The notes under the pieces: generated by a model
Told to the model about the DNA's origin: nothing
Databases searched by the model: none
What the model saw: only the letters and a program-made list of their open reading frames with translations
Position numbers and translations under genes: made by a program
Source of the DNA: Bacillota bacterium
GTDB lineage: Bacteria; Bacillota_I; Bacilli_A; Erysipelotrichales; Erysipelotrichaceae
DNA: 39,384 bases
Assembly: GCA_023249475.1 (NCBI GenBank)
Contig: JAHFCO010000022.1
Location: forward strand, 1-39,384
Direction of reading: 5' to 3'
Shown here: in pieces, positions 101-39,007 of the stretch
Layout: each line of letters begins with the position of its first letter
Position numbering within the stretch: the first letter of the stretch is position 1

Positions 101-1012
101 CTATCTTAGAGTGCTGTTTTCAAGAACAACGTTCTTGATTTTGTTTTTCTTGATTTCTTCTCTCCAGAACATTTTTACCTGATCTTCCGCGACATCATAG
201 AATTCGCGTTCGTTCACCAGATGGAACACTTGTTTTTTACGTAGCTTATGGTAAGGAAGCAGATCGATCTGCGTTATGTTTGGATAAGCTTCTTGAATAA
301 GCGCGATTTGTTTGAAGTGATCCTGTGTATCGTTGATTCCTGGAATCAACACGCAACGAAGCACCACGTCTTTTTTCGCTTTTATCAACGTATCCAGCAT
401 GATCTTTGGATCGAACTTCCTTCCCACATACTTTTCATACTTCGAATCGTCGCTGAGTTTATAGTCCACCAGATAAAGGTCGATCCAATCCGTCGTTTGA
501 CCGATGAGTTTCGCCGGGTCGTTCCCGGAAACATCCAGCGTCAGATGGATGTTTCTCTTCTTCAGTTCGACGGCACATTCTTGGATGAACGGCCATTGGT
601 TGAGGGCTTCCCCGCCGGAGAACGTTACCCCTCCGTTCGAGGTTTCATAATAGTCCTTGTCTTTCATCACTTCGTTCACCAAATCTTCCACGGTGATTTC
701 ATCCCCGAATTTGCCGAAGGCTTTTTTGGGGCAAACGTCGATCAATGCGAGGTTTTGGTCATGAAGCTGCATGTCGACGATGGCTTTGCCGTTTTCAAGC
801 GTGATTCCATTACCCTGTACGAATTCGACGCATTTACCGCAACCGTTACAACGGGATTCATCATAGCTGAGTTGGACATAGGATGCGATCGATTCAGGAT
901 TGTGGCACCATCGGCAACGCAGACCACAGCCTTTAAAGAAGACGGTCGTCCGGATTCCGGGACCGTCGTTGACGCTGAATCGTTGGATGTCGAAAACCAA
1001 ACCTTTATTCAT
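101..1012 (-). CDS. Glycyl radical enzyme activating protein (radical SAM), partner of GRE1
   Basis: Cytoplasmic radical-SAM enzyme expected to install the glycyl radical on the GRE encoded just upstream. About 303 residues. The N-terminus has the pyruvate formate-lyase activase signature DGPGIRTTVF followed by CGLRCRWC, the CX3CX2C cluster that binds S-adenosylmethionine. A short ferredoxin-like insert follows with CNGCGKC and a later isolated CP, so only enough Cys for one extra 4Fe-4S cluster instead of the usual two. GGVTFSGGEAL is the family's GGE-type SAM motif. The ATG at 1012 is chosen because AAAGGA precedes it; it overlaps the GRE1 stop by 8 bases, indicating translational coupling. 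Upstream in-frame Met codons lie inside GRE1 and lack such a site. Family assignment is firm; the partner is inferred from position. Confidence 0.93.
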   Translation of the reverse strand: MNKGLVFDIQRFSVNDGPGIRTTVFFKGCGLRCRWCHNPESIASYVQLSYDESRCNGCGKCVEFVQGNGITLENGKAIVDMQLHDQNLALIDVCPKKAFGKFGDEITVEDLVNEVMKDKDYYETSNGGVTFSGGEALNQWPFIQECAVELKKRNIHLTLDVSGNDPAKLIGQTTDWIDLYLVDYKLSDDSKYEKYVGRKFDPKIMLDTLIKAKKDVVLRCVLIPGINDTQDHFKQIALIQEAYPNITQIDLLPYHKLRKKQVFHLVNEREFYDVAEDQVKMFWREEIKKNKIKNVVLENSTLR

Positions 1013-3293: not shown

Positions 3294-3323
3294 CGGATTC
3301 CCTCGCTTTGTGTTTACCCTTGA

Positions 3324-3352
3324 ATTATACGCCCCTCCGTCGATCAAATCAA
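3324..3352 (-). promoter_or_regulatory. Sigma-70-type promoter of GRE1
   Basis: Minus-strand -35 TTGATT (3347-3352), 17-base spacer and perfect -10 TATAAT (3324-3329), about 30 bases before the GRE1 start codon. Confidence 0.75.
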
Positions 3353-5082: not shown

Positions 5083-5988
5083 CTATAAGGCGTTTTCCAC
5101 ATGCACATCAAACCCCATCGATTCAAGCTTTTCTTTGATTTCTTGGATCTTTACATTATCGGTCTTCTTCTGGTCCTTCATCGGATATTCCTCACCCAAT
5201 GCCACATACTTCCCTTCGCCGAAATTGTGATAGGCCAGAAGTTCGATACGTTGGAATGCCGAGGGATGATGTTTGAGCCAATCGAATCGCTTCTCCCATT
5301 CTTGATCCGTATCGTTAACCCAATCGAGAAGCACCATTCTCAAAACGATGTTCTTTTTTAACCGGATCAATTTCTCCAAGTTGGTCAGGATGTTTTCGTT
5401 GTCTTGTCCGGTGTACCGAAGATGCTGGATCGGATCGATGAACTTCAGGTCATACAGATAGAGATCGACATAGGGATCGATCGCCTCGAACGCTTCGAAC
5501 CCCACGTTCCCCGCGGTTTCGATCGCGATATGGATCCCTTCTTTTTTCAGGTGTTTTACGACTTCTTTGAGGAATTCGGGTTGAAGTAAGGGTTCCCCTC
5601 CGCTGAAGGTCACACCGCCTCGAGACTCTTCATAAAACAAACGGTCGCGCAAACACGTTTTCGCGACGTCTTCCGCTTCGATTTCTTCATTCACCCTCAC
5701 AAATACCTTGTACGGGCAGACCGCGATGAATTTCGCCAATTCTTTTTGTGGATCAAAGATCAAGGATTTCCCATTCAGTGTTAGTGCTTGGTCGGTGTCG
5801 ATCAATAGACAGGCGGCACATCCCGTGCAACGGGACGTGAACACCATGATTCTCTCTTCGTTACGCAGGGATTCGGGGTTGCTGCACCACAAACATCTCA
5901 GACCACAACCTGCTAAAAAGACGGTCGTCCGGATTCCGGGACCGTCATGCAGGCTATAGCGTTGGATGTTGGTGACGTGACCCTTCAC
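5083..5988 (-). CDS. Glycyl radical enzyme activating protein (radical SAM), partner of GRE2
   Basis: A 301-residue PflA-type activase, last gene of the 12-gene operon. It has DGPGIRTTVF and CGLRCLWC near residues 17-36 for the SAM-binding cluster, a CTGCAAC insert with a later VCP for one extra 4Fe-4S cluster, and GGVTFSGGEPL. The start is GTG at 5988, overlapping the GRE2 stop as GTGA with GGAG upstream, indicating coupled translation. It is similar in layout to the activase at 101-1012, with the same reduced ferredoxin insert, so the two GRE-activase pairs probably share ancestry. No obvious terminator hairpin follows its stop. Confidence 0.93.
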   Translation of the reverse strand: MKGHVTNIQRYSLHDGPGIRTTVFLAGCGLRCLWCSNPESLRNEERIMVFTSRCTGCAACLLIDTDQALTLNGKSLIFDPQKELAKFIAVCPYKVFVRVNEEIEAEDVAKTCLRDRLFYEESRGGVTFSGGEPLLQPEFLKEVVKHLKKEGIHIAIETAGNVGFEAFEAIDPYVDLYLYDLKFIDPIQHLRYTGQDNENILTNLEKLIRLKKNIVLRMVLLDWVNDTDQEWEKRFDWLKHHPSAFQRIELLAYHNFGEGKYVALGEEYPMKDQKKTDNVKIQEIKEKLESMGFDVHVENAL

Positions 5989-8381
5989 ACGCTGACTCCG
6001 TTTTCACTTCGCGCCAGAATCGCTTCTTGCGCCTGGGGCATCAACGAGACAAATTGTGCACAGTACCCTGCGACCCTGACCATCAAGTCCCCGTAGTTTT
6101 CCGGATGCGCCATCGCATCCCGTAGGACTTTGGAATCCAGGACATTGAATTGATTGTGATAGATACCCAAACGGACAGATGTTTTCAATAACGCTTTGAA
6201 TTTGGCCAGACTTTCCGGACTTTTCATCGAGGAAGGAGAGAAACGCATGTTCAGTAACTGTCCGGCCGCGACTTTCTCGTTGGGGAGTTTCGCGACGGAA
6301 AGAAGCACGGCGGTGGGACCGCAAGTATCGCTACCTTGGGTCGGGGAACAGCCTTCGTTGAGCGGACTCTTCGCACTGCGTCCATCGGGGGTCGCTCCGA
6401 CTTCCATCCCGTTGGGGACATAGGAAGTGATGTTCGAGGTGGACATCGTATAGGCGCTGATGCGCGGTCCTTTTCCTTTGCGAAGGGTTTCCAATTTAGG
6501 CAACAATTCGAGATAGGAATCGAAAACGTCCTTGACGATTTGATCCACGTCGTCGAGGTCATTGCCATACTTTTCCACATCCAACACCTGTCTTCGGATC
6601 ATCGCGCTGTCACGGGATGTCCAATTGTCTTCCATCGCGGCTTTGAGTTGAGCCAGGGTGAATTTCTTCTCTTCGATGACCAATTTCTTCAGCACCATCA
6701 ATGAATTCCCGACGACGCTGGGTCCGATGTTGGACTGGGAGATAATGTCGTAGCGACATCCGCCTTCCTTCACCGTCTTTCCTAGCGCAAGGCAATCGAG
6801 CATCATGGACGATGAGAAAGGGTCGGCGTCATAAATTTCAAGCGAGGCGTCGCAGATTTGGTCGGCTTCAACCGCCAAGTTCGTATAGAAATCCAACACG
6901 TTTTGCCATGCCTTGAATAAATCGTCGTAGTTCGTAATGATGAATTCATCGGAATCCTGCTCCTGAACCTTCAGTAAGCGAATCCCGCTTTGCGGGTCTC
7001 TCCCGTTGTAAAGCATGAGTTCAAGCATCTTTCCCCAATTACTGTAGGTCATCCCGGTCGGACGGTGTCCATACTTTCCAGGTATCCCGGTCTCGACGCA
7101 TCCGATCGCGACGTAGTCACGGGCTTCGGGTAAGGGAATCCCCAAATCGACCAAACCTTTGATGGCGACCTCGTCGTTAAACATCGAAGGCATACCGCCT
7201 CCCGTGGCGATCAGCTTCACCGCCGTTTCCAGCAGTTCATCGGGTGTATCGCGATGATAGCGCATGGAGAAGTTCGGCTCGTTGAGCGCGGTCTGGTTCA
7301 TGGCTTCAAGGCAAAGATACGACAGATCGTTGGTCGCGTCGTTGCCATTCTCATCGATGCCTCCGATCATGAGGTTGGTGTAGAGCGGATAGCCTTGGGA
7401 ATAGACGGTATGGGCGTTGGGACGCAGTTTATTGAGGGAGTTGGTCATCAGGAAGAAATGGATGAGGGTTTCAAGGGCTTGTTCCTTTGAAAGAGTGCCG
7501 GATTCCATATCTTTCTTATAATAGGGGTAGAGGGTTTGGTCGAATCGACCGAAACAAAAGGAATGACCGTTGCTTTCGATCGATTGCATCACATGGATCA
7601 GATACATCGCCTGCACGGCGTCTTGAAAAGAAGATGCGGGGCCTTCAAACAAGCGGTTCGCCCGATCCGACATTTCCAGGAGTTCTTGTTTTCGTCGAGC
7701 TTGGTTTTCATGATCCGATAATTCTTTGCATAAACCCGCGTACCGTTTCGCAAACGCCAACGCCGCGCTTAGCGCGATGCGTACGCCACGATAAAAGTCG
7801 TTGGTCTCGTCGATCGAGTCGAGGACGGATCGGAATCCATGCGCCAAAACCGTTGGGAAATCCGGCACCAAATGACCGTCGCCGCTCATCGAAATCCCGC
7901 CCAGGTGAAGGGCGCCTTGGCGTGTGGCGAGTTTGATTTCCTCGGTGAGATTACGATTCACCTCATCCTGATGTGTCTTCCCTTTCCAAAAACCGACGAT
8001 GGAAAGGATGTCGTTTCTTACTTTGGGGTCGACCGCGAACGCATCGCCTTGGCGAAGGGCGAACGTGTCGATTTCCTTTTCGATCCAGTCGATGGAATAT
8101 TCAGGGAAGACCGGGGCGGCGAAATTGCGCGAGGCTTGGTTTCCGAAGATCAGACTGTCTTCTTCGATAGAGATGCTCATGTGGCGAAGGGTATGCGAAA
8201 AGGCCTGCGCTTTACGCAGGATCATCGCTTGACCTTCGGTTTCTTGAAAGGATCGGGTATAGAAAAGCGCCCGTTCGCTGCACAGGGAGGCGTCGTGACG
8301 CAACATCTTGCGTCGTAAACGGTCGATCCGGTTCAGATCGATCGCTGTAAGGTCAACGTTCTGTGTAAGCTGCGGGCGCAT
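5985..8381 (-). CDS. Glycyl radical enzyme GRE2 (dehydratase/eliminase-type)
   Basis: A 798-residue glycyl radical enzyme. Cys428 lies in IGCVETG, the Cys-x-Glu arrangement of glycerol/propanediol dehydratase-type GREs, and the radical loop is RVAGYCAQF with the radical Gly at about residue 772. The missing Cys-Cys pair argues against pyruvate formate-lyase. The family removes water, amines or sulfite from small polar substrates, or decarboxylates; the substrate here is not readable from sequence. It lies directly after the DeoC-type aldolase with a 4-base gap and is coupled to its own activase. Context (sugar-type regulator, aldolase, hexulose-phosphate enzymes) suggests a polyol or sugar-derived substrate, an inference only. 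Start ATG at 8381 with AAGGA upstream. Confidence 0.93.
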   Translation of the reverse strand: MRPQLTQNVDLTAIDLNRIDRLRRKMLRHDASLCSERALFYTRSFQETEGQAMILRKAQAFSHTLRHMSISIEEDSLIFGNQASRNFAAPVFPEYSIDWIEKEIDTFALRQGDAFAVDPKVRNDILSIVGFWKGKTHQDEVNRNLTEEIKLATRQGALHLGGISMSGDGHLVPDFPTVLAHGFRSVLDSIDETNDFYRGVRIALSAALAFAKRYAGLCKELSDHENQARRKQELLEMSDRANRLFEGPASSFQDAVQAMYLIHVMQSIESNGHSFCFGRFDQTLYPYYKKDMESGTLSKEQALETLIHFFLMTNSLNKLRPNAHTVYSQGYPLYTNLMIGGIDENGNDATNDLSYLCLEAMNQTALNEPNFSMRYHRDTPDELLETAVKLIATGGGMPSMFNDEVAIKGLVDLGIPLPEARDYVAIGCVETGIPGKYGHRPTGMTYSNWGKMLELMLYNGRDPQSGIRLLKVQEQDSDEFIITNYDDLFKAWQNVLDFYTNLAVEADQICDASLEIYDADPFSSSMMLDCLALGKTVKEGGCRYDIISQSNIGPSVVGNSLMVLKKLVIEEKKFTLAQLKAAMEDNWTSRDSAMIRRQVLDVEKYGNDLDDVDQIVKDVFDSYLELLPKLETLRKGKGPRISAYTMSTSNITSYVPNGMEVGATPDGRSAKSPLNEGCSPTQGSDTCGPTAVLLSVAKLPNEKVAAGQLLNMRFSPSSMKSPESLAKFKALLKTSVRLGIYHNQFNVLDSKVLRDAMAHPENYGDLMVRVAGYCAQFVSLMPQAQEAILARSENGVSV

Positions 8382-15355: not shown

Positions 15356-15916
15356 TCACTCCAGATTGGCGTGACGTGTGAACATCTCGCTGCCCGTCAA
15401 ATTCATCTTATCCATCATCAACATCACGCAGATATCCAGGTAAAGTAGAAGGGATTGTTCGAAGAGGTTCCCCATCGGCTGGATGCTTTTGAGATCCCCT
15501 TCCTTGGCGGCCTTCGGTGAAGGCGCGTTGATGCGTACGCAGACATCGGCGAGTTTCCCGATGGTCGATTCCGGATTGATCGTCACCAGGACGACCTTCG
15601 CATCCAACGACTTGGCTTTTTGGGCCATGGAAACCAGACTCTTGGTTTCCCCCGACCCCGAACACACGACCAACACGTCGCTTTGACGCAGGTTGGGCGT
15701 CACGGTTTCCCCGACCAGATAGACTTTGCGTCCCATGTGCATCAGACGCATCGTGAAGGCGCGCGCCATGAATCCGCTGCGGCCGGCACCGCAGACGAAG
15801 ATCTCGTCCGCGCCTTCCAACGTCTCGATCATCAAATCGACGCTTTTTGGATCGATCTGGTTCAACGCCTGGTTCAGTTCACTTGTCACTGCGTTGGAAT
15901 ACTCATGCAGATTCAT
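15356..15916 (-). CDS. hxlB: 6-phospho-3-hexuloisomerase (SIS domain)
   Basis: A 186-residue single SIS-domain protein of the phosphohexuloisomerase family, interconverting D-arabino-3-hexulose-6-phosphate and fructose-6-phosphate in the ribulose monophosphate cycle. Typical features are FVCGAGRSGFMARAF near residue 40, CSGSGETKS near 88 and the family-specific SIQPMGNLFEQSLLLYLD stretch near 150. It overlaps the synthase gene by 14 bases with GAGGATG as its binding site. The pair is the standard formaldehyde-fixing or formaldehyde-releasing couple. Confidence 0.93.
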   Translation of the reverse strand: MNLHEYSNAVTSELNQALNQIDPKSVDLMIETLEGADEIFVCGAGRSGFMARAFTMRLMHMGRKVYLVGETVTPNLRQSDVLVVCSGSGETKSLVSMAQKAKSLDAKVVLVTINPESTIGKLADVCVRINAPSPKAAKEGDLKSIQPMGNLFEQSLLLYLDICVMLMMDKMNLTGSEMFTRHANLE

Positions 15917-16541
15917 GGTTCATCCTCGCTTTCATGGTCTTCGCGGCTTGGATCGGATCGGCTTGGTTGGTGATGCCCCCGCCGACCACGATGATCGAAG
16001 GTTTCAACCGGGCGATCGCACCCAAGGTCGACAGTTTCACGCCTCCCGCGACTCCGGCTTTGGCGTTTTCAAGGACGCTCAATATGATCTCCAGTTCCGC
16101 CAAGGGATTGGCACCGCTGGATTGTAAGTCGAAAGCCGTATGGACGCAGATCACATCGACCCCCAGACGATCGACTTCGATCGTCCGCTGACGCAGGTCG
16201 TGCACGTCGATCATGTCGACCATGACTTTACGGTTGTATTTACGTGCCGCGCTGACGACACCCGAGATCGTGGTGTCGTGGCTGACCCCCAGGACCGTGA
16301 CATAATCCGCCCCGGCTTCGAAACACTGGGAGGCTTCATATTCACCGGCATCCATGATCTTCGCGTCGGCGAGGACTTCCAGATCCGGGAAACGCCCCTT
16401 CATTTCACGTACCGCCCACAGTCCGTACTCAAGCAACACGGGCGTCCCGATTTCGACGATGTCCACGGTATCCTTCACTTTCTCGACCAAATCCAGGCAT
16501 TGTTTGAGGGATAGGGTATCCAGGGCGAGCTGCAGTTTCAT
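15903..16541 (-). CDS. hxlA: 3-hexulose-6-phosphate synthase
   Basis: A 212-residue enzyme of the OMP decarboxylase superfamily that condenses formaldehyde with ribulose-5-phosphate, or runs in reverse. The active-site residues are visible: Asp8, Glu30 and the DxKxxD motif at 59-64 (LADAKIMDAG). VTVLGVSHDTT and VMVDMID match hexulose-phosphate synthase better than 3-keto-gulonate-6-phosphate decarboxylase (UlaD). Start ATG at 16541 with GGAGG, overlapping the DeoR stop as ATGA. Being the first enzyme after the regulator, it marks C1/pentose-phosphate exchange as central to the operon. Confidence 0.92.
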   Translation of the reverse strand: MKLQLALDTLSLKQCLDLVEKVKDTVDIVEIGTPVLLEYGLWAVREMKGRFPDLEVLADAKIMDAGEYEASQCFEAGADYVTVLGVSHDTTISGVVSAARKYNRKVMVDMIDVHDLRQRTIEVDRLGVDVICVHTAFDLQSSGANPLAELEIILSVLENAKAGVAGGVKLSTLGAIARLKPSIIVVGGGITNQADPIQAAKTMKARMNHESA

Positions 16542-17305
16542 TGAATTTCCTCCGTGAATTTCCATTCATTCGTGTAAGGTAGGTTCTGCGCATCCGCTTT
16601 CCCTTCCGCATTGGTGATCAAGACATCGAAATCATCGAATTTGCCATAGGTATAGGTTCCGGTCACATCGAATTTACTCTCATCGAAAATCAGGATCTTC
16701 GTATCGCTTCGACGCAACACTTCCTTTTTGACCAGGCTTTCTTCATAGGAGAAGGTCGTCGGTCCGCGTTGCCCTTTGAATCCGTCGGTGCCCATGATCG
16801 CCAAATCGAAGTGCAGGTCCATCAGTTGGTCGACGGCGAACCGTCCGACCAAGGATTCGGAACTCCGTTGCACCCGGCCGCCCAACAAGATGATTTCATG
16901 CTGGGACGGAAGCAGGATGGAGGCCGCGGCGATCGAGTTGGTGAAGATCGTCAGTTCTTCCTTCTGCCAGAGCAGACGCGCCAGTTCAAGGGCCGTGCTG
17001 CCCGGATCCAGGAAAAGTTTGCATTTCTCGGGGATGTACGCCAAGGCTTCCTTGGCGATTTTACGCTTTTGCATCGTCCTCTCGCTCATCTTCACGCCGA
17101 TCGGCTGTTCGGAGTAGGGACCGCTCAACAGCGCTTCCCCGTGGCCTTTGATCAAGAGCCCTTTTTGCTGGAGATAGTCCAAATCTTTTCGGATCGTTTC
17201 CGTGCTCACGCCGAAAATCTCGGCCAATTCCTTGACCGTCGCCTTTCCGTCCTGAATGATTCGATTCGCCATTCCCTTGCGCCGATTCAGTTGCTCATTT
17301 GCCAT
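16538..17305 (-). CDS. DeoR-family transcriptional regulator of the 12-gene operon
   Basis: A 255-residue repressor-type regulator. The N-terminal winged helix (about residues 5-60) contains VKELAEIFGVSTETIRKDL, the DeoR signature. The C-terminal DeoRC domain has KLFLDPGSTALELARLL and LLGGRVQ, the phosphosugar-sensing fold. The ATG at 17305 follows GGAGG; the longer reading from 17344 would start inside the -10 region. It is first in the operon, so autoregulation is likely; TTGGTT-type repeats flank its promoter. The effector is probably a sugar phosphate such as hexulose- or ribulose-phosphate (inferred). Confidence 0.92.
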   Translation of the reverse strand: MANEQLNRRKGMANRIIQDGKATVKELAEIFGVSTETIRKDLDYLQQKGLLIKGHGEALLSGPYSEQPIGVKMSERTMQKRKIAKEALAYIPEKCKLFLDPGSTALELARLLWQKEELTIFTNSIAAASILLPSQHEIILLGGRVQRSSESLVGRFAVDQLMDLHFDLAIMGTDGFKGQRGPTTFSYEESLVKKEVLRRSDTKILIFDESKFDVTGTYTYGKFDDFDVLITNAEGKADAQNLPYTNEWKFTEEIQ

Positions 17306-26951: not shown

Positions 26952-27511
26952 ACGTTCGCCTCTTTCCATTCCGGTTGGCCGTCGACCTTGAAACAGCGCA
27001 CCGGGAATCCGCCGCGATCGATCGTTTCATAGTCGTGCCCCGCCAACACGTTCCAGCACGCCCCGACCGCCATGACGTCGCCATCGTGGGTGTTGATGAG
27101 CCGGTGGGCATATTTCCCGTTGATGTAGTGGACGGAACCGGGAAAGACCTTCTCCGCGAACACTTCGTCCTTTCCGTCCCAATACAACAAGAATCCTTCG
27201 CCGGAAAGCCCGAAATAGTATTCGTCGTAGTTCTTATCCGCATGGAAATGGCCGCGGGTGAAACTGTATTCCCCGTCGACGGTATACGGATTCAGGTAAG
27301 TGACGCCGAAATTAAGCGTCCCCGCCACGGCCGGGGTCGGCGCGGGGATCGATACGACGCGATAGGCGATCTTCTCCTGGAGGTCGCTTGGGATCGGATG
27401 CCGGTAGGAAGCGCTTAGCGCCCCGACCTTCTTCTCATACGCATCCAGATGGTCTCCACCGAGTGAAAAAGGCAGTGGAAAACGAAAAGCGGCTGTGTTA
27501 CGAATTTCCAT
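26948..27511 (-). CDS. Cupin-type glucose-6-phosphate isomerase
   Basis: A 187-residue cupin of the archaeal-type phosphoglucose isomerase family, interconverting glucose-6-P and fructose-6-P. Metal ligands are His88, His90, Glu97 and His136, in TRGHFHADKNYDEYYFG and YAHRLIN; from memory these are the same positions as in the Pyrococcus furiosus enzyme. ATG at 27511 follows GGGAGG by 6 bases; the earlier Met at 27517 abuts the binding site. It is not homologous to the common PGI fold, so it may act as a backup or respond to different metals. Confidence 0.88.
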   Translation of the reverse strand: MEIRNTAAFRFPLPFSLGGDHLDAYEKKVGALSASYRHPIPSDLQEKIAYRVVSIPAPTPAVAGTLNFGVTYLNPYTVDGEYSFTRGHFHADKNYDEYYFGLSGEGFLLYWDGKDEVFAEKVFPGSVHYINGKYAHRLINTHDGDVMAVGACWNVLAGHDYETIDRGGFPVRCFKVDGQPEWKEANV

Positions 27512-29249
27512 AGTCATCCTCCCTTGTGCCACGGACGAACGCGTGGATCAATGCATGTTTCCCTTCGCCGACCGGTTTGACGATGAATCGTTTGACCGCT
27601 GCGGGCACGATGAAACATTCCGCATAGTGGAATTCGGTATCTTCGAAATGGTGGTCGGGGTCGCTGATGACGACGCTTTGCCCTTCCACCAACATCAATT
27701 CGTGGACGGTGTTCCCGGTGTCGATTTCAAACGGTCTGTCGAACCAGGTGCGTACGGTCTCGATGAATTCCAGTTCATGCAGACCGGTCCGCTCTTGTCT
27801 GATCCCCTCTTCTTCATGGAGAAGTCGGATGTTGTTGACCAGATGGGAATGGACCCATTCCGTATCCCGGTCGACCTGGATGACATGCTCGGCATGGTCG
27901 AGATGGACGGGGCGAGGACGTCCGTCCATGCCCAGTCTTCCCCAGTCCCAAAGTTTGAAGGTGAAAATATACGGCGTGGCGCTGATTTCCAAAACCACGG
28001 ATTGCGTCCCGCTGCAGTGGATCGTCCCGCCGGGGATCAGGAAATGATCGTGTTTCTTGGCCGGGATGTTGTTGATGAAGCGTGCGTCGTCGAAGCGTTT
28101 CTCCCCGCGTTGCGCCGCTCGGAGATCTTCCATCAGGTCGTCGAGCTTCGTGCCGGTCTTTACCCCGAGATAGACATGGGCGCCTTCCCCCGCATCCAGC
28201 ATATAATAACTCTCGTCCTGGGTATAGGTCATCCCGAAGGTCCGTTGGATATAGTCGGTCAGCGGATGGACTTGCAGGGAAAGGTTCCCGCCTCCCATCG
28301 TGTCCAAGAAGTCGAAGCGGATCGGATATTCCCGTCCGAAGCGCGCGACGGTTTTCGCCCCCATGAGGTTTTTGGATTCAAACAAGACCGCATCCATGGC
28401 TTGGAGCGTAAAGGTTTCTTCATCGATCTTGAAACAGATCGCATTCTCTTCCGGAACGCCGTTGAACGACCAGGCGTAGTTGGGTTTATCTTGGGGAAGG
28501 TTGCAGTGTTCCTTCATCCATTGTCCGCCCCATACCCCGGGGTCGAAGTACGGGACCATGCTGAACGGCTTGGACGCGGTTTCACGCAACGCCAGGTCGA
28601 CCGCATGTTTACTCAACAGTTTCGGTGTACCGGCAAGATCGTCGTCCAAGACATAGGCGACACGGTTCCAGATCGAGATTTTATGACGATCGGCGATCCG
28701 CCAATCGACGAAATAGCCGCGTTTAAACATACGCAGGGGATCTTCTTTGAAGTTGCCTGCGTTATAGTTGTCCGACTCCCCGCGCCGGAAGCGAAGCTGG
28801 ATTTCCCAACGCGATACGCTGGTCAGCCAGATGAGCGCGTCCTGACAATAGAGCGAACTCCCCAAACCGATCAACAAGCGCTTCCCCGTCGAGTCGTCGA
28901 AATCGTCCTGCAGTTTCGCCGAGCGCTCGGGATGTCGCAGATCCTTGATCGTCTTGTGGGTGATGTGACCGAAAACCCGATCCTCGGTAAGATCGCTTGC
29001 CAAGAGCGCATCGAGCTCCTCGCCGGAAAGATTGGCTTGGTCCGTGTCGAAGACTTCATCGAAGAGCCCTGAAAGTTCTTGGATCAGTCGTGCTTTGTTT
29101 GTCCCGGGATAGGTTTCGATCGCGACGACATCCTGGGTCATCAACAGCACCGCCAGTTCGTTGCGCAGCGCTTCGTAGCCGGTCCGGATCTTTTCATCGA
29201 CCGCTGTGATTTGGATGCGTGGATGAGGACGGTAGAGATTTTTTTGCAT
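27498..29249 (-). CDS. Long mannose-6-phosphate isomerase with N-terminal kinase-like domain
   Basis: A 583-residue class I mannose-6-phosphate isomerase. Residues 1 to about 215 resemble a nucleoside/uridine kinase-like fold whose P-loop is degenerate (YPGTNKARLI where GxxxxGKS would be). The isomerase cupin follows, with LSLQVHPL, QDESYYMLDAGE and IPGGTIHCSG supplying zinc-type ligands (Gln, His, Glu, His). It converts mannose-6-P to fructose-6-P. CGGAGG precedes the ATG at 29249. First gene of the leftward unit and divergent from the GntR gene. Confidence 0.85.
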   Translation of the reverse strand: MQKNLYRPHPRIQITAVDEKIRTGYEALRNELAVLLMTQDVVAIETYPGTNKARLIQELSGLFDEVFDTDQANLSGEELDALLASDLTEDRVFGHITHKTIKDLRHPERSAKLQDDFDDSTGKRLLIGLGSSLYCQDALIWLTSVSRWEIQLRFRRGESDNYNAGNFKEDPLRMFKRGYFVDWRIADRHKISIWNRVAYVLDDDLAGTPKLLSKHAVDLALRETASKPFSMVPYFDPGVWGGQWMKEHCNLPQDKPNYAWSFNGVPEENAICFKIDEETFTLQAMDAVLFESKNLMGAKTVARFGREYPIRFDFLDTMGGGNLSLQVHPLTDYIQRTFGMTYTQDESYYMLDAGEGAHVYLGVKTGTKLDDLMEDLRAAQRGEKRFDDARFINNIPAKKHDHFLIPGGTIHCSGTQSVVLEISATPYIFTFKLWDWGRLGMDGRPRPVHLDHAEHVIQVDRDTEWVHSHLVNNIRLLHEEEGIRQERTGLHELEFIETVRTWFDRPFEIDTGNTVHELMLVEGQSVVISDPDHHFEDTEFHYAECFIVPAAVKRFIVKPVGEGKHALIHAFVRGTREDDYGNS

Positions 29250-30023: not shown

Positions 30024-30039
30024 GAAATTTTCAACCACA

Positions 30040-30103
30040 GTGCGACTGATATTCAGTCGCGCTTCGACTTTTAGTCGCACCGTGATTGAGAATCAATCAC
30101 GGT
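30040..30103. repeat. Cluster of three hairpins between convergent genes
   Basis: GCGACTGA/TCAGTCGC (30042-30060), CGACT/AGTCG (30065-30077) and ACCGTGATTG/CAATCACGGT (30079-30103) form three consecutive hairpins. An alternative pairing joins 30040-30047 with 30073-30080. The third contains the stop codon of the isomerase gene. No long T-run follows, so this is not a classic terminator. Confidence 0.6.
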
Positions 30104-31031
30104 AGCTACTAATCAACGTCGTGATCTTTCCGTCGATTTCGACTTCGCCGAATGAATCCGGCACCAACAATGTGGTTCCGGGGCGAACGTCGATGTCATC
30201 GACCTTGCCTTCGCCCTCGATCACCGTGATGAAATAGAAATGCGGGTCGTCGAAGACGCCGTGGGTTTCCGTTTCGATTTTGCGTAGTGTGAATTTCTTC
30301 GGTTCGTCGATGAATTCGCTGATCAAACACCCTTTAAAAAGGAACGGTTCAGGATGGATCGGTCCTTTTTCTTGATGGGGGATCGTCAGGACATCCATCG
30401 CACGGTCGAGATGAAGGTCGCGATGCATGCCGGTCTTGGCATCGACGCGATTGTAATCGAAAATACGGTAGGTGATGTCCGCGTTGCGCGAGATTTCGAA
30501 GGTGACGACGTTTTTCCCGATCGCATGGATCGTCCCGGCGGGGACGTTGAGGAAATCCCCCGCGTTCGCCTCCACATAGGAGAGAAGTTCATCCCATTTC
30601 CCGTCATTCGCCTTCTTCAAGAACTCTTCCTTGGTCTTGGCCGTGTGTCCGAATTGGATTTTATGGTTCCCGTTGGTTTCCAAAACATACCAGGCTTCCG
30701 GTTTCCCATACGAACCGTAATGTTCCGTCGCATAGCCTTCGGTCGGATGAACCTGGACCGAAAGGTTGTCGATGGGATCCATCAAGGTGCAGCGGAGCGG
30801 GAACTGTTCGCTGGCGCAGTTGAACCATTCCGGTAGTTTTTCATAGGCTTCGCTCAGCGACATCCCGAGTTCGGTCAAACGGTTATCCCCGTTGCCTTTG
30901 AGCGCGGCGACGCACCACATTTCTCCGATGCGGTCGATGTCCGTCTCTCCGTGGAATCTTGTCTTCATCATCGTTCCGCCCCAGATTCTCTCTTTGAAGA
31001 TCGGTTCGACATGTACGATTTGCTTTTTCAT
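30093..31031 (-). CDS. manA: Mannose-6-phosphate isomerase, class I (short form)
   Basis: A 312-residue type I enzyme. It has FKERIWGG near the N-terminus, SVQVHPTE (Gln and His zinc ligands), GKPEAWYVLE (Glu ligand) and PAGTIHAIG (His ligand). ATG at 31031 with AAGGGG, overlapping the NagA-ManA fusion stop by ATGA. The pair is transcribed leftward from the promoter near 33185. It is a complete isomerase right next to a fusion protein that carries a second such domain. Confidence 0.92.
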   Translation of the reverse strand: MKKQIVHVEPIFKERIWGGTMMKTRFHGETDIDRIGEMWCVAALKGNGDNRLTELGMSLSEAYEKLPEWFNCASEQFPLRCTLMDPIDNLSVQVHPTEGYATEHYGSYGKPEAWYVLETNGNHKIQFGHTAKTKEEFLKKANDGKWDELLSYVEANAGDFLNVPAGTIHAIGKNVVTFEISRNADITYRIFDYNRVDAKTGMHRDLHLDRAMDVLTIPHQEKGPIHPEPFLFKGCLISEFIDEPKKFTLRKIETETHGVFDDPHFYFITVIEGEGKVDDIDVRPGTTLLVPDSFGEVEIDGKITTLISSYRD

Positions 31032-33151
31032 ACTTTCCCCTTCCGTTGATAGGTGACATAGGCGATGCAGCATTTCCCTGTGATCTTGATGCGCGGGGAT
31101 TCGCAGGGCACGAACCAGGTTTCGCCTGCAATGAATTCCTGGTCGTCGATCTTTCCGTTTCCATCCAGTATTGTCAGGAAATAGAATTCGTCGCGTTGGA
31201 AATACCCCTCGTGTTCGACTTCCAGCTTCCCGGCGGTATAGACCCCGGGTTCATCGTGGAAGACCGTATGGACGATCCCTTCTTCTTCGATGGGATGCAG
31301 GGCGACCGGCCGGGTATCGTCGTTGGGAATCCGGATGTTGTCGAGGACTTGCCGGACATGCAAGGGGCGTGGATTCTTCGTGATCGGATCGATCCGATCG
31401 TAATCATAGAGGCGATAGGTCAGATCCGCGTTCTGGGTGAACTCGATCAAGGTGACCCCGCCGCCGAAGGCATGGAGCGTCCCGTAGGGGACATCCACGA
31501 AGTCGCCGGAGCGCACCGGGATGACGCGCACCAACGCGTCGAACGCCTTCGCATCGACCTTCGCTTTGAATTCTTCGTATGTTTGCGCGGTATGTCCGAG
31601 CACCATCGTGCCTTCCCCTTCGATGAAATAGACGCCGTCGGGTTTCCCTTTCTTCCCTTCGTGCTTCATCGCATACGCATCGTCGGGATGCAGCTGGATG
31701 GACATCGGGATGATCGGGTTGGCCATGGCGGTCCGCACGGGCATTTCGTCGGTATCGCTTTTAAAAAGATCGGGATGCGCGAGATAGAAGTCGGAAAGTT
31801 TCTGTCCGGTGGCTTCGACCGTGCAATCCAGATGCCCTTTCATCGCGATGACGTTGTAGCACTCGCCGATGTTGGGGAGGTCGCTGACATAGCCGTATTT
31901 TTCTTTCAACCGGTTTCCGCCCCAGATGCGGTAGTTGAAAACCGGCAGGATTTTATAGAGTTTTTTATCGGTTTCACGCTGAAACACCCGTTTGCCTTCG
32001 CGATAGGTCGCGACGACGTCATAATGATCGTCCAGAATCGTGAAATCCGCGCATTTCCCGGGTTTCAGTCCGCCGATCTTCTCGAGTTTCAACAGTTTCG
32101 CCGGGTTGACGCTGGTCATTTCGACCGCTTCCTCGATCGAACATCCCGTGAACTCCAGGATGTTCTTGAAGGCATCGATCATCCCGATCGTCGATCCCGC
32201 GATCCGTCCCGTGGCTTTGGTGAGCGCTTTGCGACCGACATTCACGCATTCGACGCCTCCGAAGATGAACTCCCCGTCCCCCATCCCTTTGGCCGGGTTG
32301 GCATCGGTGATGCAGATCAAACGGCGGCTTCCCAGGATCTGGTAGGTCAGCTTCACGACCAACGGGTCGATATGGAAACCATCCGTAATGAGCTCACAGT
32401 AGCTGTCGCCCTTCAATAACGCCGCCGTGACGGCGCCGGGACTGCGGTGGGTGTGTTGGGTCATCGCGTTGTAGAGGTGGGTGAACCCGTCCCCGCCCGC
32501 CGCAAGGGCGTGCAAGGTCTGTTGGGCCGTCGCATCGGTATGCGCGAACATCACCGCCACCTGATGATGATGGCATTCTTCGATGAACACTTCGATCCCA
32601 TCGGATTCGGGCGCGACCGTCACCATCCGTAGTTTATTTCTCGTGAGTTGCACATCGTCGTCGATTTCACCCTTGACGATCTTGCGGATGCCCTCGGCTT
32701 CCATCATCGCCTTGAACTTGAGACTCAGGAAAGGTCCTTCGTTGTGGATCCCGATCCAGCGCGCCCCTTCTTCGGGCGCATCCATTTTCCCGTAGGTTTC
32801 AAGTAAATCACGTTCGATGGGTCTCGGCTTCGCCATCAGCGACGTCAAAAACGAAGTCGTCCCTTCGCCGGCATAGAACTTCGCGACCTTTCCCAACTTT
32901 TCAAGATCGGGGTCGATGAAATCATGTCCGAGGGCGCCGTGGGTATGGATGTCGAGGAACCCGGGGATGAGGGTCGATGCCCCGTGATGCACCTGAGTGA
33001 CCGCGGGATCGCGGAGGTACTCGCGTAGCGCCGGGTCTTCGGGTCGGGTCACCAAGACGATGTATCCGTCTTTCTCAAGCAGGATGCCGTCGTCGATCCT
33101 GGGTCCGTATCCGGGCACGATCGTTTTCGCAAAGTGTAGGGTACAGGTCAT
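31028..33151 (-). CDS. Fusion of N-acetylglucosamine-6-phosphate deacetylase and mannose-6-phosphate isomerase
   Basis: A 707-residue bifunctional protein. Residues 1 to about 393 are NagA: DIHTHGALGHD, Glu138 in HNEGPF, the His pair in FAHTDAT and THLYNAM, and catalytic Asp283 in CITDANPAKG. Residues about 397-707 are a class I mannose-6-phosphate isomerase: YRIWGGNRL, SIQLHPDD, GKPDGVYFIEGE and PYGTLHAFGG. The usual KPE zinc-site Glu is Asp. No stop or frameshift lies at the junction. ATG at 33151 is chosen for GAGGTG; the GTG at 33160 overlaps it. It would deacetylate GlcNAc-6-P and also isomerise mannose-6-P to fructose-6-P. Confidence 0.9.
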   Translation of the reverse strand: MTCTLHFAKTIVPGYGPRIDDGILLEKDGYIVLVTRPEDPALREYLRDPAVTQVHHGASTLIPGFLDIHTHGALGHDFIDPDLEKLGKVAKFYAGEGTTSFLTSLMAKPRPIERDLLETYGKMDAPEEGARWIGIHNEGPFLSLKFKAMMEAEGIRKIVKGEIDDDVQLTRNKLRMVTVAPESDGIEVFIEECHHHQVAVMFAHTDATAQQTLHALAAGGDGFTHLYNAMTQHTHRSPGAVTAALLKGDSYCELITDGFHIDPLVVKLTYQILGSRRLICITDANPAKGMGDGEFIFGGVECVNVGRKALTKATGRIAGSTIGMIDAFKNILEFTGCSIEEAVEMTSVNPAKLLKLEKIGGLKPGKCADFTILDDHYDVVATYREGKRVFQRETDKKLYKILPVFNYRIWGGNRLKEKYGYVSDLPNIGECYNVIAMKGHLDCTVEATGQKLSDFYLAHPDLFKSDTDEMPVRTAMANPIIPMSIQLHPDDAYAMKHEGKKGKPDGVYFIEGEGTMVLGHTAQTYEEFKAKVDAKAFDALVRVIPVRSGDFVDVPYGTLHAFGGGVTLIEFTQNADLTYRLYDYDRIDPITKNPRPLHVRQVLDNIRIPNDDTRPVALHPIEEEGIVHTVFHDEPGVYTAGKLEVEHEGYFQRDEFYFLTILDGNGKIDDQEFIAGETWFVPCESPRIKITGKCCIAYVTYQRKGKV

Positions 33152-33176
33152 CTCGATCACCTCTTTGTTTCTATTG

Positions 33177-33224
33177 TACGATAGATTATGCGTTTTTACG
33201 ATAGTTTTTGAGAGATAATGATAG
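33177..33224. promoter_or_regulatory. Three direct repeats at exact 20-bp spacing upstream of the NagA-ManA fusion
   Basis: TACGATAG at 33177-33184 and 33197-33204 and AATGATAG at 33217-33224 recur every 20 bases, about two helical turns. A minus-strand -10-like CATAAT lies at 33185-33190 between the first two. This suggests an operator array for a regulator that binds one DNA face. Confidence 0.5.
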
Positions 33225-33247: not shown

Positions 33248-33271
33248 AAAGAAGACGTTCCCGCCTTCTTT
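33248..33271 (-). terminator. Rho-independent terminator after the C_GCAxxG gene
   Basis: AAAGAAG (33248-33254) pairs with CTTCTTT (33265-33271) and overlaps the stop codon at 33270. The minus strand continues T-rich. Confidence 0.65.
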
Positions 33272-34529: not shown

Positions 34530-34557
34530 AAAAACGACGCGGATTCCCGTCGTTTTT
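34530..34557 (-). terminator. Rho-independent terminator of the SIS-to-aldolase operon
   Basis: AAAAACGACG (34530-34539) pairs with CGTCGTTTTT (34548-34557); on the minus strand an eight-T run follows. It ends the leftward operon right after the aldolase stop. Confidence 0.85.
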
Positions 34558-35195
34558 CAGATTGTTTTGCGCGCTTTTTCGACGATGCTTACAAATTCGC
34601 GCGAACGTTGTCGGATGTTTTCCAGAAACCCCTCGCTCCCGCTTTTCTTAAGGTCGGCCAATTGACTGCCGATGCCGATCGCGCTCGCCCCGGCGGACAA
34701 GTAGTCGTAGGCGTTGTCGAGGCCGATGCCGCCGGTGACCATGATGGGGATGCGGGGTAGAGGCGCTTTGATGTTTTTCAGGTAGTCCGGACCCAGTTGG
34801 ACGGCCGGGAAAAGCTTCACCATGTCCGCGCCGGCGAAAGCCGCCTTGGCGATTTCGGTGGGGGTGAAAACGCCGGGGACCACTTCGACGTTGCGCAGTT
34901 TGCAGTACTTGACCACCTCGACATCCAAGATCGGGGAGACGATGAACGTGGCGCCGGCCACAAGGGCTTTGCGGGCTTGGTCGAGGGTCAGTACCGTCCC
35001 GGCACCCAATGTGATCCCGTCGATGTCTTTGCAGGCTTCGACGGCTGCGTAGCCGCCCTCGTTTTCAACGGTGATTTCGATGGCGAAAACACCGCTTTCC
35101 TTCAGCGTTTCGACGACTTCGCGGATATTGCTTGCCGTGGCGTTGCGCAACACGGCGACGACGCCCGATTTCGCGATCGCTTCCTGTAGTTTCAT
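34557..35195 (-). CDS. KDPG/KHG aldolase-like class I aldolase
   Basis: A 212-residue TIM barrel of the 2-keto-3-deoxy-6-phosphogluconate aldolase family, which cleaves 2-keto-3-deoxy sugar acids to pyruvate and an aldehyde. Catalytic Glu40 in AIEITVEN and Schiff-base Lys127 in MVKLFPA are present. The usual EVTLRT Arg is Glu44 here, so the sugar-acid specificity may differ. ATG at 35195 with GAGGG; the GTG at 35207 overlaps the previous gene. Last in the operon, fitting a role as the final cleavage step. No 2-keto-3-deoxygluconate kinase or sugar-acid dehydratase is in the window. Confidence 0.88.
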   Translation of the reverse strand: MKLQEAIAKSGVVAVLRNATASNIREVVETLKESGVFAIEITVENEGGYAAVEACKDIDGITLGAGTVLTLDQARKALVAGATFIVSPILDVEVVKYCKLRNVEVVPGVFTPTEIAKAAFAGADMVKLFPAVQLGPDYLKNIKAPLPRIPIMVTGGIGLDNAYDYLSAGASAIGIGSQLADLKKSGSEGFLENIRQRSREFVSIVEKARKTI

Positions 35196-35203
35196 TGAAT
35201 CCC

Positions 35204-36145
35204 TCACTTTCGGAAGGCTAAGACACGGCGTGGATTGTGGATGAAGAGATCGTCGATGATGCGTTTCGAATCCAACGTTTCCGCATCCAACCGCTCTCTC
35301 AATTCTTCCTTGAACGTCTTCAGCAGATAGTCCAGACCGAACGTACCGCCGTATCCTTTAAAGTAGCTTTGGCGCGCGAAGTCGCCGCTGATCAGGATCT
35401 GGGTATGCAGGTTCTCTTTCGCCAAGCGCAGGATGTAGTCGATCGCCCGCTCTTTCGTATTGTACTTCGCTTTCGGGATGGAATCGTAGCCTAAGAACGC
35501 ACCGCGTTTCACCAGTTCGTAGTGGACGCTGAAATCATCCAGTTGATCCATGTGGCCCAGGATGATCGACGAAGGGTCAAGCCCTTCTTCGACGAAGAGG
35601 TCGAGCTGTTCCTTCGCCATGGTCCCCGCCTGGGTGTGGGTGGTGATGGGGATGCCCGTTGCGAGCGATGCGCGGGAAATCGCACGGAGTCCGATTTCCT
35701 CCCAGGGATGGATGACGTTCAAACTGGTGCCGATCTTCAACACACCCGGACGGATCCCGCTCCCGTCGACCCCCTCCTCGACTTCTTGGATCAATTCACG
35801 TGCGACCTCGTCGATCGACCGGTTCTCAAGAAACGCACGGTTGTACGTCCCTTTATTGAAGCCTCCGGTCGCGACGATGGATACGCCGCTTCTTTCATTG
35901 AGTTCTTTTAACTTAAAAATGTTTCGTCCATAATCGACCGTGGTCACTTCCACGATGAGCGATCCGCCGGCTTCCTTAAACAATCCAAGGTCGACGACGA
36001 TCTTGTCGAGGTCGTCGAGGACCATGGTCGGGTTTTCCGCCGCCACTTCTTGTGTCGCCGTCGTGTAGAGATGTTCATGGACATAGGTGTTCCCCACATC
36101 CTTCGCATCCACGAAGCCCATTACGGTTAAAATCTGTCCTTTCAC
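35204..36145 (-). CDS. Phosphotriesterase-family metallohydrolase, probable lactonase
   Basis: A 313-residue member of the phosphotriesterase-related (amidohydrolase) family. Metal ligands are His23 and His25 in VHEHL, carbamylated-type Lys137 in GVLKIGTS, His170 in TTHTQAG, His198 in LGHMDQ and Asp255 in SGDFAR. Relatives act as lactonases. Next to a dehydrogenase and an aldolase, opening of a sugar lactone is the best guess (inferred). GTG start at 36145 with AGGAGG, overlapping the oxidoreductase stop by 4 bases. Confidence 0.87.
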   Translation of the reverse strand: MKGQILTVMGFVDAKDVGNTYVHEHLYTTATQEVAAENPTMVLDDLDKIVVDLGLFKEAGGSLIVEVTTVDYGRNIFKLKELNERSGVSIVATGGFNKGTYNRAFLENRSIDEVARELIQEVEEGVDGSGIRPGVLKIGTSLNVIHPWEEIGLRAISRASLATGIPITTHTQAGTMAKEQLDLFVEEGLDPSSIILGHMDQLDDFSVHYELVKRGAFLGYDSIPKAKYNTKERAIDYILRLAKENLHTQILISGDFARQSYFKGYGGTFGLDYLLKTFKEELRERLDAETLDSKRIIDDLFIHNPRRVLAFRK

Positions 36146-37461
36146 ACCGGTTCCTCCTGTCGTAGGGTAAGGATCGCCCCGTTGGCGATCAAGGTTTTCT
36201 GTAGTTGTTTGATGTCGATGTCTTTGGGTGCTTTATGTTGCATGTACGCTAGGCTGGCGGCGGTTCCCGCCGCTTGTCCCATCGCCATGCATTGTCCCAT
36301 ACTGCGGACCGAGGCATGGGCGTCATGGGTCGCGGACAGGCAACGTCCGGCGACCAAGAGATTTTCGCTGTCTTTCGGGATCAATGAACGATAAGGAACC
36401 TGATAGGTCTGCCCTTCGGGAAGATAGGCCCAAACCGTCGAACTGGTTTGGTTGTGGTCTTCGATCGGCGCGCCGCATTCCACCACCGCGTCTTCGAATT
36501 GACGGGCGGATAAGACATCTTCGCGGGTCAAGGTATACTCGCCGAAGATCCGTCGTGTTTCACGCACCCCGATCTGGGTGCTGAAGTTCAGGAAACCGGC
36601 GTTTTCATAGCCGGGGAGATAATCTTTCATGAAGCGGAAATACTCGAGGGCTTGGCGTCGACCCAGGATCTCCGCCTTGGAGAGTTCGACGATATCGGTC
36701 GGGTCGGGAAGCGAAAGACGGACCATGTTGGTGGCCATGACGCCGGGCAGGGTCGTGATGTGGACGCTGCCTTCTTCACGGGGCAACCAATACTTGCCGC
36801 TGGCGTTGGCTTCCTTCATCCAAGCCCACATTTGGTTCTTGGTGAAGGTTTTGGCTTTTTCGTTATCGACGTTGCATAGCCTGAAGGTGGTCGTCAAGGC
36901 TTGGACCGGTTCATGCGAACCGATGCCGTCAAACGGAAGACCGGCGAGCGCGACGATGTCCGCGTCGCCCGAGGCATCGACGACGATGTCGGCCTCGATC
37001 TTCAGGAAACCGGATTTGTTGACGACGATCACCCCGGTGATCCTGTTTCCCTCCTTGACCACATCGACCACGAAACTATGCAGAAGGATATCGACTTTGG
37101 ATTCGGTCAACAGTTCTTCATAGACGACTTTCAGGGTTTCGGGATCATAGGTGATCCCCGTCCCCGCCCCGTAGGTGTTGGGGCGCAGCAACATCGCCCC
37201 TCTTTCCTTGAGTTTATCCAAAATCAGATCGGGGATGCCGCCGACCACTTTACGTCCTTCCTTGCCCGGGAGATAGAACCCGTAGAAGGTATCCAGGATG
37301 TAGGTGCTGGTCCCTCCCACGAAGCCATAGCGTTCCACCAGCATCGTCTTGCGGCCTTCCCTGGCGGAAGCGATCGCGGCGTTGCATCCGGCGCTACCGG
37401 CGCCCACGACCAAAATCTCGGTCTGTACGGTTCGGTCGATTCGTTTCGTGTAGTTTGTCAT
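36142..37461 (-). CDS. FAD-dependent oxidoreductase (FAD_oxidored family)
   Basis: A 439-residue flavoprotein. VVGAGSAGCNAAIASAREG near residue 18 is the dinucleotide-binding GxGxxG, followed by LVERYGFVGGTST, a second nucleotide-binding region near DIVVDASGDADI, and LLVAGRCLSATHDAHAS with SMGQCMAMGQAAGTAA at the C-terminus. These are typical of the FAD_oxidored group, whose substrates are mostly unknown. It overlaps the SDR stop by ATGA. With the SDR it gives two oxidation steps in the same operon. Confidence 0.87.
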   Translation of the reverse strand: MTNYTKRIDRTVQTEILVVGAGSAGCNAAIASAREGRKTMLVERYGFVGGTSTYILDTFYGFYLPGKEGRKVVGGIPDLILDKLKERGAMLLRPNTYGAGTGITYDPETLKVVYEELLTESKVDILLHSFVVDVVKEGNRITGVIVVNKSGFLKIEADIVVDASGDADIVALAGLPFDGIGSHEPVQALTTTFRLCNVDNEKAKTFTKNQMWAWMKEANASGKYWLPREEGSVHITTLPGVMATNMVRLSLPDPTDIVELSKAEILGRRQALEYFRFMKDYLPGYENAGFLNFSTQIGVRETRRIFGEYTLTREDVLSARQFEDAVVECGAPIEDHNQTSSTVWAYLPEGQTYQVPYRSLIPKDSENLLVAGRCLSATHDAHASVRSMGQCMAMGQAAGTAASLAYMQHKAPKDIDIKQLQKTLIANGAILTLRQEEPV

Positions 37462-38240
37462 TGGGCTGTCCAACCTCCGTCCACCGGGAGGATGATCCCG
37501 GTGATGAAATCCGATTCTGCGGCTGCGAGGAAGGTCGCGGCCTTCGCGACCGACAACGGGTTCCCCAGCGTGTGTTTGTGGGCATAGATGGGTTGTTTGT
37601 AATCCATATACTTCAGGATGTCCTCATCGCTTTGCGCCCGTAGACTCATGGGCGTTTCGATCAAGCCGGGTGCGATGACGTTGACCCGGATGTGTTGTTT
37701 GGCATAGTAGATCGCCATCGCCCTTGACAACCCGATGATGGCCGCCTTGGAGGCGGCATAGGCGTGGGTCGAAAACATTTCGTTTCCCCCGACCATGCCC
37801 AGGACGGAAGCGGTGTTGATGATGCACCCCGGACGGTTTGCATCCAGCCAACGCTTCACCATGAACTTGCTCATGACGATCTGGGTCGTGAGGTTGAGGT
37901 CGAAGGTTTGGCGATAGGCGTCCATCGAGAGTGAATGCAGGGGACCGTCGCCGAATCGGCGTCCGCTCCCGCCGGCGATGTTGAAGAGGACCTCGATTAA
38001 GCCGAATTCCTTTTCGATGCGCTCGAGGACGGCTTCGACTTGAACTTCGTCGGTACAGTCCACCGCTTCATAGCGGAAAGATTCCGGATCGGAAGAAAGA
38101 AGCGCGAGAACCAAAGGATCGTCTGCAGGTTTTACGTCGATCCCGACTACCTTGTCCCCTTGATTGAGAAACAGATTGACCGACGCTTGCCCGATCCCGC
38201 CCAGGGCGCCCGTGATCACGACGACGCGCCGCGGGTTCAT
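37458..38240 (-). CDS. SDR-family NAD(P)-dependent dehydrogenase
   Basis: A 260-residue classical short-chain dehydrogenase. It has TGALGGIG at residues 10-17 for cofactor binding, NIAG at 87-90, Ser145 in NTAS, and catalytic Tyr161 and Lys165 in YAASK. Asp35 after the second strand (GIDV) suggests preference for NAD. It would oxidise a hydroxyl, for example on a sugar or sugar acid. Overlaps the SIS gene by ATGA. No clear binding site, so expression probably depends on coupling. Confidence 0.92.
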   Translation of the reverse strand: MNPRRVVVITGALGGIGQASVNLFLNQGDKVVGIDVKPADDPLVLALLSSDPESFRYEAVDCTDEVQVEAVLERIEKEFGLIEVLFNIAGGSGRRFGDGPLHSLSMDAYRQTFDLNLTTQIVMSKFMVKRWLDANRPGCIINTASVLGMVGGNEMFSTHAYAASKAAIIGLSRAMAIYYAKQHIRVNVIAPGLIETPMSLRAQSDEDILKYMDYKQPIYAHKHTLGNPLSVAKAATFLAAAESDFITGIILPVDGGWTAQ

Positions 38241-39007
38241 TGGTTGCGCAAGGTACGACGACGATAGTCGTTGTAGGTGGCTTCGAAGACGGCGCGGGAG
38301 GCGTCGATGCCGATGAAATGGGGACTGGTCAAGACCAAGGGCGGTTGTCCGGCTTGGGTCAGCAATTCGGCGACGCGGGCTTTGATGAGGTTGACGACCA
38401 AGGTGTTCCCGATCGTCGAGGTCGGGGAGACGGGATAGATCAAGTCGGGGACGCGGACCGCCGCATCCCCCAGGGGGACGCAGGTATCGATGACCAGGTC
38501 GGCGATGTCGATCAGTTTCTTGCCGCTGGAATGTTTGACCGGGGTTTTCAGGCTGTTTTCAACCGCGACGACCGCGACCACGAACATCCCCCGCTGCTTG
38601 GCCCCCATCGCCATCTCGATGACGACGTTGCCCACGCCGCTGGTGGAGAAAAGCAAGAAAACGTCTTTGGGGTAAAAGACGAAATTGCGTAGGATCTGTT
38701 CGGCCAAGCCTTCCACGTTCTCGATGAACATGGCTTGGCGCTGTCCGTTGGCGCCGACGACCTGGTTGTGGTAGGTCATCGAAAGTTCGACGATGGGATG
38801 GAAGCCGGGATAGCTGCCATAGCGCGGAAAGACTTCTTCCACCGCCATGCGGGAATGGCCCGAGCCATAGACATGGACCAAGCCGCCGTCGGCGATGGCG
38901 TCGGCGAAACGCTTGGAAGCTTCCTCGATTTTGTCCATCTGGGTTTCGGCGATGTCGTCGACGATTTTTCTCGTCGCTCTCAAGTATTGTGCGTATACGT
39001 CGTTCAT
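38237..39007 (-). CDS. SIS-domain sugar isomerase-like protein (SIS_2 family)
   Basis: A 256-residue single SIS-domain protein. VHVYGSGHSRMAVEEVFPRYG near residue 44, LLFSTSGVGNVVIEMA near 118 and a conserved TPVKHSSGKKLIDIADLVIDTCVPLGDA segment match a family of putative phosphosugar isomerases. AAAGGG precedes the ATG at 39007. First gene of the operon, with promoter and palindrome directly upstream. A partial paralogue follows at the right edge. Its substrate is unknown. Confidence 0.82.
   Translation of the reverse strand: MNDVYAQYLRATRKIVDDIAETQMDKIEEASKRFADAIADGGLVHVYGSGHSRMAVEEVFPRYGSYPGFHPIVELSMTYHNQVVGANGQRQAMFIENVEGLAEQILRNFVFYPKDVFLLFSTSGVGNVVIEMAMGAKQRGMFVVAVVAVENSLKTPVKHSSGKKLIDIADLVIDTCVPLGDAAVRVPDLIYPVSPTSTIGNTLVVNLIKARVAELLTQAGQPPLVLTSPHFIGIDASRAVFEATYNDYRRRTLRNQ

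Follow-up and report, generated by a model that had tools for sequence, protein, structure and literature searches.

The locus analysed here raises two questions: whether its NagA-like and ManA-like sequences really form one protein and, if so, what such a protein would contribute to amino-sugar metabolism. In the window (the whole stretch of DNA that was analysed, 39,384 nucleotides), which comes from a genus of Erysipelotrichaceae-type bacteria, a single open frame on the minus strand (31028-33151, 707 codons plus stop) includes a NagA-type amidohydrolase domain (31982-33151, residues 1-390 of 707) followed by a domain of the type I phosphomannose isomerase fold (31031-31966, residues 396-707 of 707), which was delimited by comparison with PDB 1qwr and placed by a phylogenetic tree into a group referred to below as the D-type clade. 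The two meet at the junction GATAAAAAACTC (31958-31969, minus strand). The same frame has an alternative GTG start at 33160 (31028-33160, 710 aa). The ATG at 33151 appears to be the better start, since it is preceded by AAAGAGGTGATCGAG, in which the SD-like AGGTGA makes a good ribosome-binding sequence, and since it agrees with the end coordinate of the first-pass annotation. At the other end, the TGA of the fusion gene overlaps the ATG of manA2 (30093-31031, minus strand) as ATGA. ManA2 is a separate isomerase paralogue, which keeps the normal Glu at the zinc-ligand position. Both the uninterrupted two-domain frame and the free-standing isomerase directly after it, as described in the first-pass annotation, are therefore confirmed. 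A third ManA-like sequence is found within 6 kb: it constitutes the C-terminal part of a 583-aa protein (27498-29249, minus strand), for which no Pfam or NCBIfam match was found, its N-terminal approximately 205 residues included.

The NagA half matches PDB 2vhl (E=1.7e-52) and exceeds the cut-off of the NCBIfam model TIGR00221 (256.9-259.1 vs 225.65 bits). The ManA half matches PDB 1qwr (E=7e-40) and scores below the cut-off of the equivalog model TIGR00218 (74.2 vs 116.2 bits). The AlphaFold2 model of the fusion (mean pLDDT 94.9, pTM 0.68, dipping to 76 in the linker) predicts two well-defined domains, their mutual arrangement being uncertain. VIA-align superimposes 2vhl over fusion residues 2-396 (Z 54.9) and 1qwr over residues 396-701 (Z 40.7, 302 residues, rmsd 1.4). 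Both domains are complete, and folding as separate units is confidently predicted for them.

A frame of this kind could also be an artefact, two separate genes being joined because a stop codon was missed or a homopolymer misread, and the run of six A (AAAAAA) that the window's genome has at the junction would fit such an error. The second genome of the genus (G001, UBA12416, DOUE01000021; L009/L038/L057) argues against it. It carries the same fusion in frame, 89% identical at the amino-acid level over residues 1-710, and its junction GAGCGCAAA has no A run (codons GAA-ACG-GAG-CGC-AAA-CTC vs GAA-ACC-GAT-AAA-AAA-CTC in the window). The upstream region is near-identical in the two genomes and the ATGA overlap downstream is also kept. 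Between them, dN/dS (Nei-Gojobori) amounts to 0.116 in the NagA half and 0.138 in the ManA half, with 0.198 in a short junction stretch: both halves are under purifying selection, in two species. Since the frame is kept despite different junction bases and dN/dS is low on either side of them, neither chance nor an assembly slip accounts for it, and a sequencing or assembly error as the source of the fusion can be practically dismissed. Judging from the open frame shared by the two genomes and the selection on each of its parts, the single-polypeptide NagA-ManA gene fusion is real, and it is rare.

Of the 272 family genomes searched, a match over both halves came solely from the two members of this genus. 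No other NagA-ManA fusion was present among the matches listed for 395 genomes of the class (ManA query) and 392 genomes of the phylum, nor among those listed for 398 genomes of a clostridial phylum, and on plasmids there was no place covering 80% of the fusion query. These genome sets overlap and, as each search scored just the top candidates of a genome under an E-value limit, a divergent fusion may have escaped notice. Long frames in G1121, G1152, G977 and G856 were inspected and none of them is NagA-ManA; the one in G910 is apparently a GH1-ManA fusion (765 aa, L141:2030-4327 of a clostridial genome), the partner being judged from the N-terminal sequence only. As in the NagA-ManA protein, the ManA domain is placed there behind another carbohydrate enzyme, but the partner resembles a family 1 glycosidase and the event is unrelated. 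The literature searched (mostly papers readable without subscription) describes no NagA-ManA fusion either, in line with the earlier statement that no characterised fusion of these two enzymes is known. The search for the domain pair in related genomes, proposed at the same time, has found it in both genomes of the genus and nowhere else searched.

How the fusion could have arisen is suggested by a sister genus, g8 (G008, G281, G282, G283, G286), in which nagA and a D-type manA are separate, immediately adjacent genes of the same operon. The g8 nagA product is 48-49% identical to the NagA half of the fusion and the g8 manA product is 62-64% identical to the ManA half. In all four g8 genomes with both sides of the junction read, the two genes overlap, the manA start being located inside the nagA end as ATGAGTAA (G008, G286), ATGAATAA (G282) or ATGA (G281). 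Within GATGAGTAAACTC of G008, TAA terminates nagA and the overlapping ATG begins manA. The fusion junction is one base shorter than this counterpart; therefore, a one-base deletion together with substitutions would yield the fused frame. The separate pair and the fusion have the operon, the paralogues and the immediate adjacency in common and differ in that g8 makes two proteins from overlapping genes, with no in-frame junction. We propose that in the ancestor of one genus adjacent overlapping nagA and a specialised manA paralogue merged when a one-base deletion in the overlap took out the nagA stop and brought manA into frame. This is the simplest reconstruction and a probable one, the event itself not being directly witnessed. 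The fusion is thus a lineage-specific union of specialised paralogues of two known families and not a new kind of system.

The first-pass annotation regarded the NagA half as a complete deacetylase. This holds for the fold and the metal ligands: H69, H71, E138, H204, H225 and D283 (707 numbering) are all present, as are the phosphate-site motifs, and the whole-domain fold, the metal ligands, THLYNAM and HRxPG are shared with canonical NagA (2vhl, 1ymy, 6fv3). It does not hold for the catalytic loop, which reads K-G-A-(H/Q) in canonical NagA and K-A-M-M in the fusion. The catalytic His after K-G-A (Gln in several Firmicutes) is absent and, according to the alignment, Met150 (707 numbering; codon 32702-32704, minus strand) occupies its position. 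The isomerase at the C terminus is the other difference from the canonical enzymes. The loop His was shown to be essential in M. marinum NagA (PMC6016474). In the nearest NagA paralogues of the family the loop is mostly K-A-(L/M/V/I)-M, and Met at this position is, by alignment, a clade trait of a NagA subgroup; other NagA copies of the same genome (L003, L004) retain the canonical loop. In several other genera, NagA paralogues of this group (L144, L146, L148, L149, L151, L055, L142) directly adjoin a gene for a DeoC-family aldolase as a conserved pair, and most of these DeoC-adjacent paralogues have a K-A-(L/M)-M loop, the loop having been read in L144, L146, L148 and L055.

In the ManA half, alignment with 1qwr confirms the Asp reported earlier in place of the usual zinc-site Glu (Asp508 in 710 numbering, Asp505 of 707; codon 31637-31639, minus strand). 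Of the metal-ligand set Gln, His, Glu, His, the fusion has Gln489, His491 and His563, with Asp508 substituting for Glu. The other active-site residues are retained (Q489, H491, K506, H563 and R583, 710 numbering), and the first four match Gln98, His100, Lys116 and His175 of the B. amyloliquefaciens mannose-6-phosphate isomerase (M6PI), in which Glu118 is a metal ligand and takes part in proton transfer together with Lys116 (PMC4718643). The inactivity of B. subtilis M6PI is explained by a naturally occurring substitution of the adjacent Gln ligand (PMC4718643). Overall, the fused domain shares the fold, Gln, two His, Lys and Arg with type I ManA (TIGR00218; 1qwr, 2wfp, 1pmi) and differs in Glu to Asp, in the change of the following x-W to G-V, in the sub-cut-off TIGR00218 score and in the N-terminal fusion.

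At the Asp position, 59 aligned ManA sequences have Glu (48), Asp (10) or Ser (1). The ten Asp-containing proteins form one clade (support 98/95, four genera) in a tree built without the motif columns, and eight of them are unfused, only two being fused. Since this D-type clade is monophyletic and mostly unfused, Asp predates the fusion, and its origin as a product of the fusion is rejected. Accordingly, the earlier claim stands for the Asp itself but not for its tie to the fusion: it is a trait of an older ManA clade consisting mostly of separate proteins. Each of the four genera with a D-type ManA has it either fused to nagA or encoded beside nagA or nanE. The close outgroups of the clade include two tandem ManA paralogues with Glu, located beside a mannose-type PTS (G215 L131:6311-8215).

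These alignments trace both halves of the fusion to groups of paralogues that are altered at catalytic positions. With its Asp, the ManA domain may have lost activity, changed its specificity or kept ordinary activity. A fusion in which the deacetylase is active while the ManA domain is catalytically dead, serving as a structural or sugar-sensing module, would agree with Asp replacing a catalytic and metal-binding Glu and with the location of the Glu-type manA2 directly after the fusion gene. We nevertheless find a dead domain quite improbable: an Asp can still serve as a metal ligand, the domain, with dN/dS of 0.138, retains its Gln, Lys and Arg as well as both His, and the D-type protein is stand-alone in three other genera, where a purely structural role for NagA is unlikely.

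The surroundings of the fusion gene bear on its expression and its pathway. Upstream of it, three direct repeats CTATC(A/G)T(A/T) are located exactly 20 nt apart (33177-33224, minus strand); the last one lies over a TACAAT box and the repeats are kept in the second genome, so the region is a probable promoter/operator. Terminator-like hairpins, both of them consensus matches only, are found between the fusion gene and the upstream gene (33248-33271, minus strand) and after manA2 (30031-30049, minus strand). Flanked by them on both sides, the fusion gene would share a unit of its own with manA2 alone. The linked operon (34557-39007, minus strand) is headed by a gene for a UPF0309 SIS protein (38237-39007), followed by those for an SDR (37458-38240), an FAD oxidoreductase (36142-37473), a PTE/phospho-lactonase-type protein closest to 3pnz (35204-36145) and a KDPG aldolase (34557-35207). 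In the sister genus the SIS - SDR - FAD oxidoreductase - PTE - KDPG aldolase series is located directly before nagA - manA, while in the window PHP and C_GCAxxG_C_C genes intervene between the KDPG aldolase gene and the fusion. Streptomyces NagS (PDB 9eol, E=1.7e-24) is a homologue of the SIS protein, which retains the essential NagS residues H53, R64, E94 and D179 and has Met instead of Ser91; N228 is not aligned. NagS is a GlcNAc-6P dehydratase, and its product, 6P-chromogen I, can be deacetylated by NagA (PMC12680351).

Elsewhere in the window, HxlA and HxlB (3-hexulose-6-P synthase and isomerase; 15356-16565, minus strand) are encoded beside corrinoid methyltransferase-like genes, as judged by sequence only; Enterococcus avium and two genomes of the family have HxlAB beside a ManA paralogue (L046, L058, L130). 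The window also encodes two glycyl radical enzymes (1005-3347 and 5985-8381, minus strand), accompanied by their activases; neither enzyme passes a substrate-specific NCBIfam equivalog cut-off.

The reading that we favour, and consider probable, is a single-chain fusion of nagA and a specialised manA, with both domains working in the amino-sugar pathway to which the linked operon would belong. The NagA domain would remove acetyl from an N-acetyl-amino-sugar 6-phosphate and the ManA domain would isomerise a sugar phosphate in an aldose-ketose-type reaction. The main effect of the fusion would be to fix the 1:1 ratio and the co-location of enzymes already produced from adjacent overlapping genes. 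We infer that each domain is a working metal-dependent enzyme, against which stand the role of the replaced Glu as a metal ligand and proton-transfer residue in type I isomerases (PMC4718643), the loop His to Met change, the sub-cut-off score of the fused ManA, the absence of an intermediate common to the textbook reactions that would account for the pairing, and the occurrence of the fusion in only two genomes. The inherited clade traits, Asp and Met, probably reflect altered specificity rather than loss of function, and we suspect the substrate to be an amino-sugar phosphate other than GlcNAc-6P or Man-6P. Canonical-loop NagA copies, a canonical-clade ManA and PF01182 (NagB-family) proteins are all encoded elsewhere in the genome.

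The obvious alternative is a bifunctional enzyme of the textbook kind, in which GlcNAc-6P deacetylase and mannose-6-phosphate isomerase would direct both sugars (e.g., those of N-glycans) to fructose-6-phosphate. The family assignments of both halves agree with it, as does the proximity of two NanE genes and a mannose-type PTS. Yet it seems unlikely to us, as the genome encodes canonical NagA paralogues and a ManA of the canonical clade at other loci, both active sites have clade-specific changes, and the operon partners (SIS, oxidoreductases, PTE and KDPG aldolase) include neither NagB nor a mannosidase. In view of the Met loop and the clade-derived Asp, the fused protein may not carry out the textbook GlcNAc-6P deacetylase and Man-6P isomerase reactions. 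Substrate channelling between the textbook reactions was also considered and rejected, there being no shared intermediate (GlcN-6P is not known to be a ManA substrate). The idea that D-type ManA takes the place of an absent NagB is weakened by the presence of PF01182 proteins in all nine genomes checked.

A more specific scheme, to which we assign a small chance, places a neofunctionalised pair in an Entner-Doudoroff-like route for an N-acetyl-amino-sugar phosphate. The NagS-like SIS protein would dehydrate the substrate to a 6P-chromogen-I-type compound, which the NagA domain would deacetylate to a 2-imino/2-keto-3-deoxy sugar phosphate; the D-type isomerase together with the SDR and FAD oxidoreductases would convert and oxidise the deacetylated product, the PTE would open the lactone, and the route would end at the KDPG aldolase, giving pyruvate and glyceraldehyde-3-P. 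The NagS homology, the known deacetylation of chromogen I and the PTE and KDPG aldolase genes of the operon speak for this route. Against it are the Met in place of NagS Ser91 and the inactivity of three other NagS homologues (25-36% identity) on GlcNAc-6P (PMC12680351).

Returning to the favoured reading of two working, specialised domains, standard family models label the first half of the fusion as plain NagA. The fusion can be seen alongside its unfused sister state, and its probable one-base cause is readable in the sequence. Since the NagA and ManA paralogue groups, both with changed catalytic residues, are linked to one and the same operon, their real substrates are testable.
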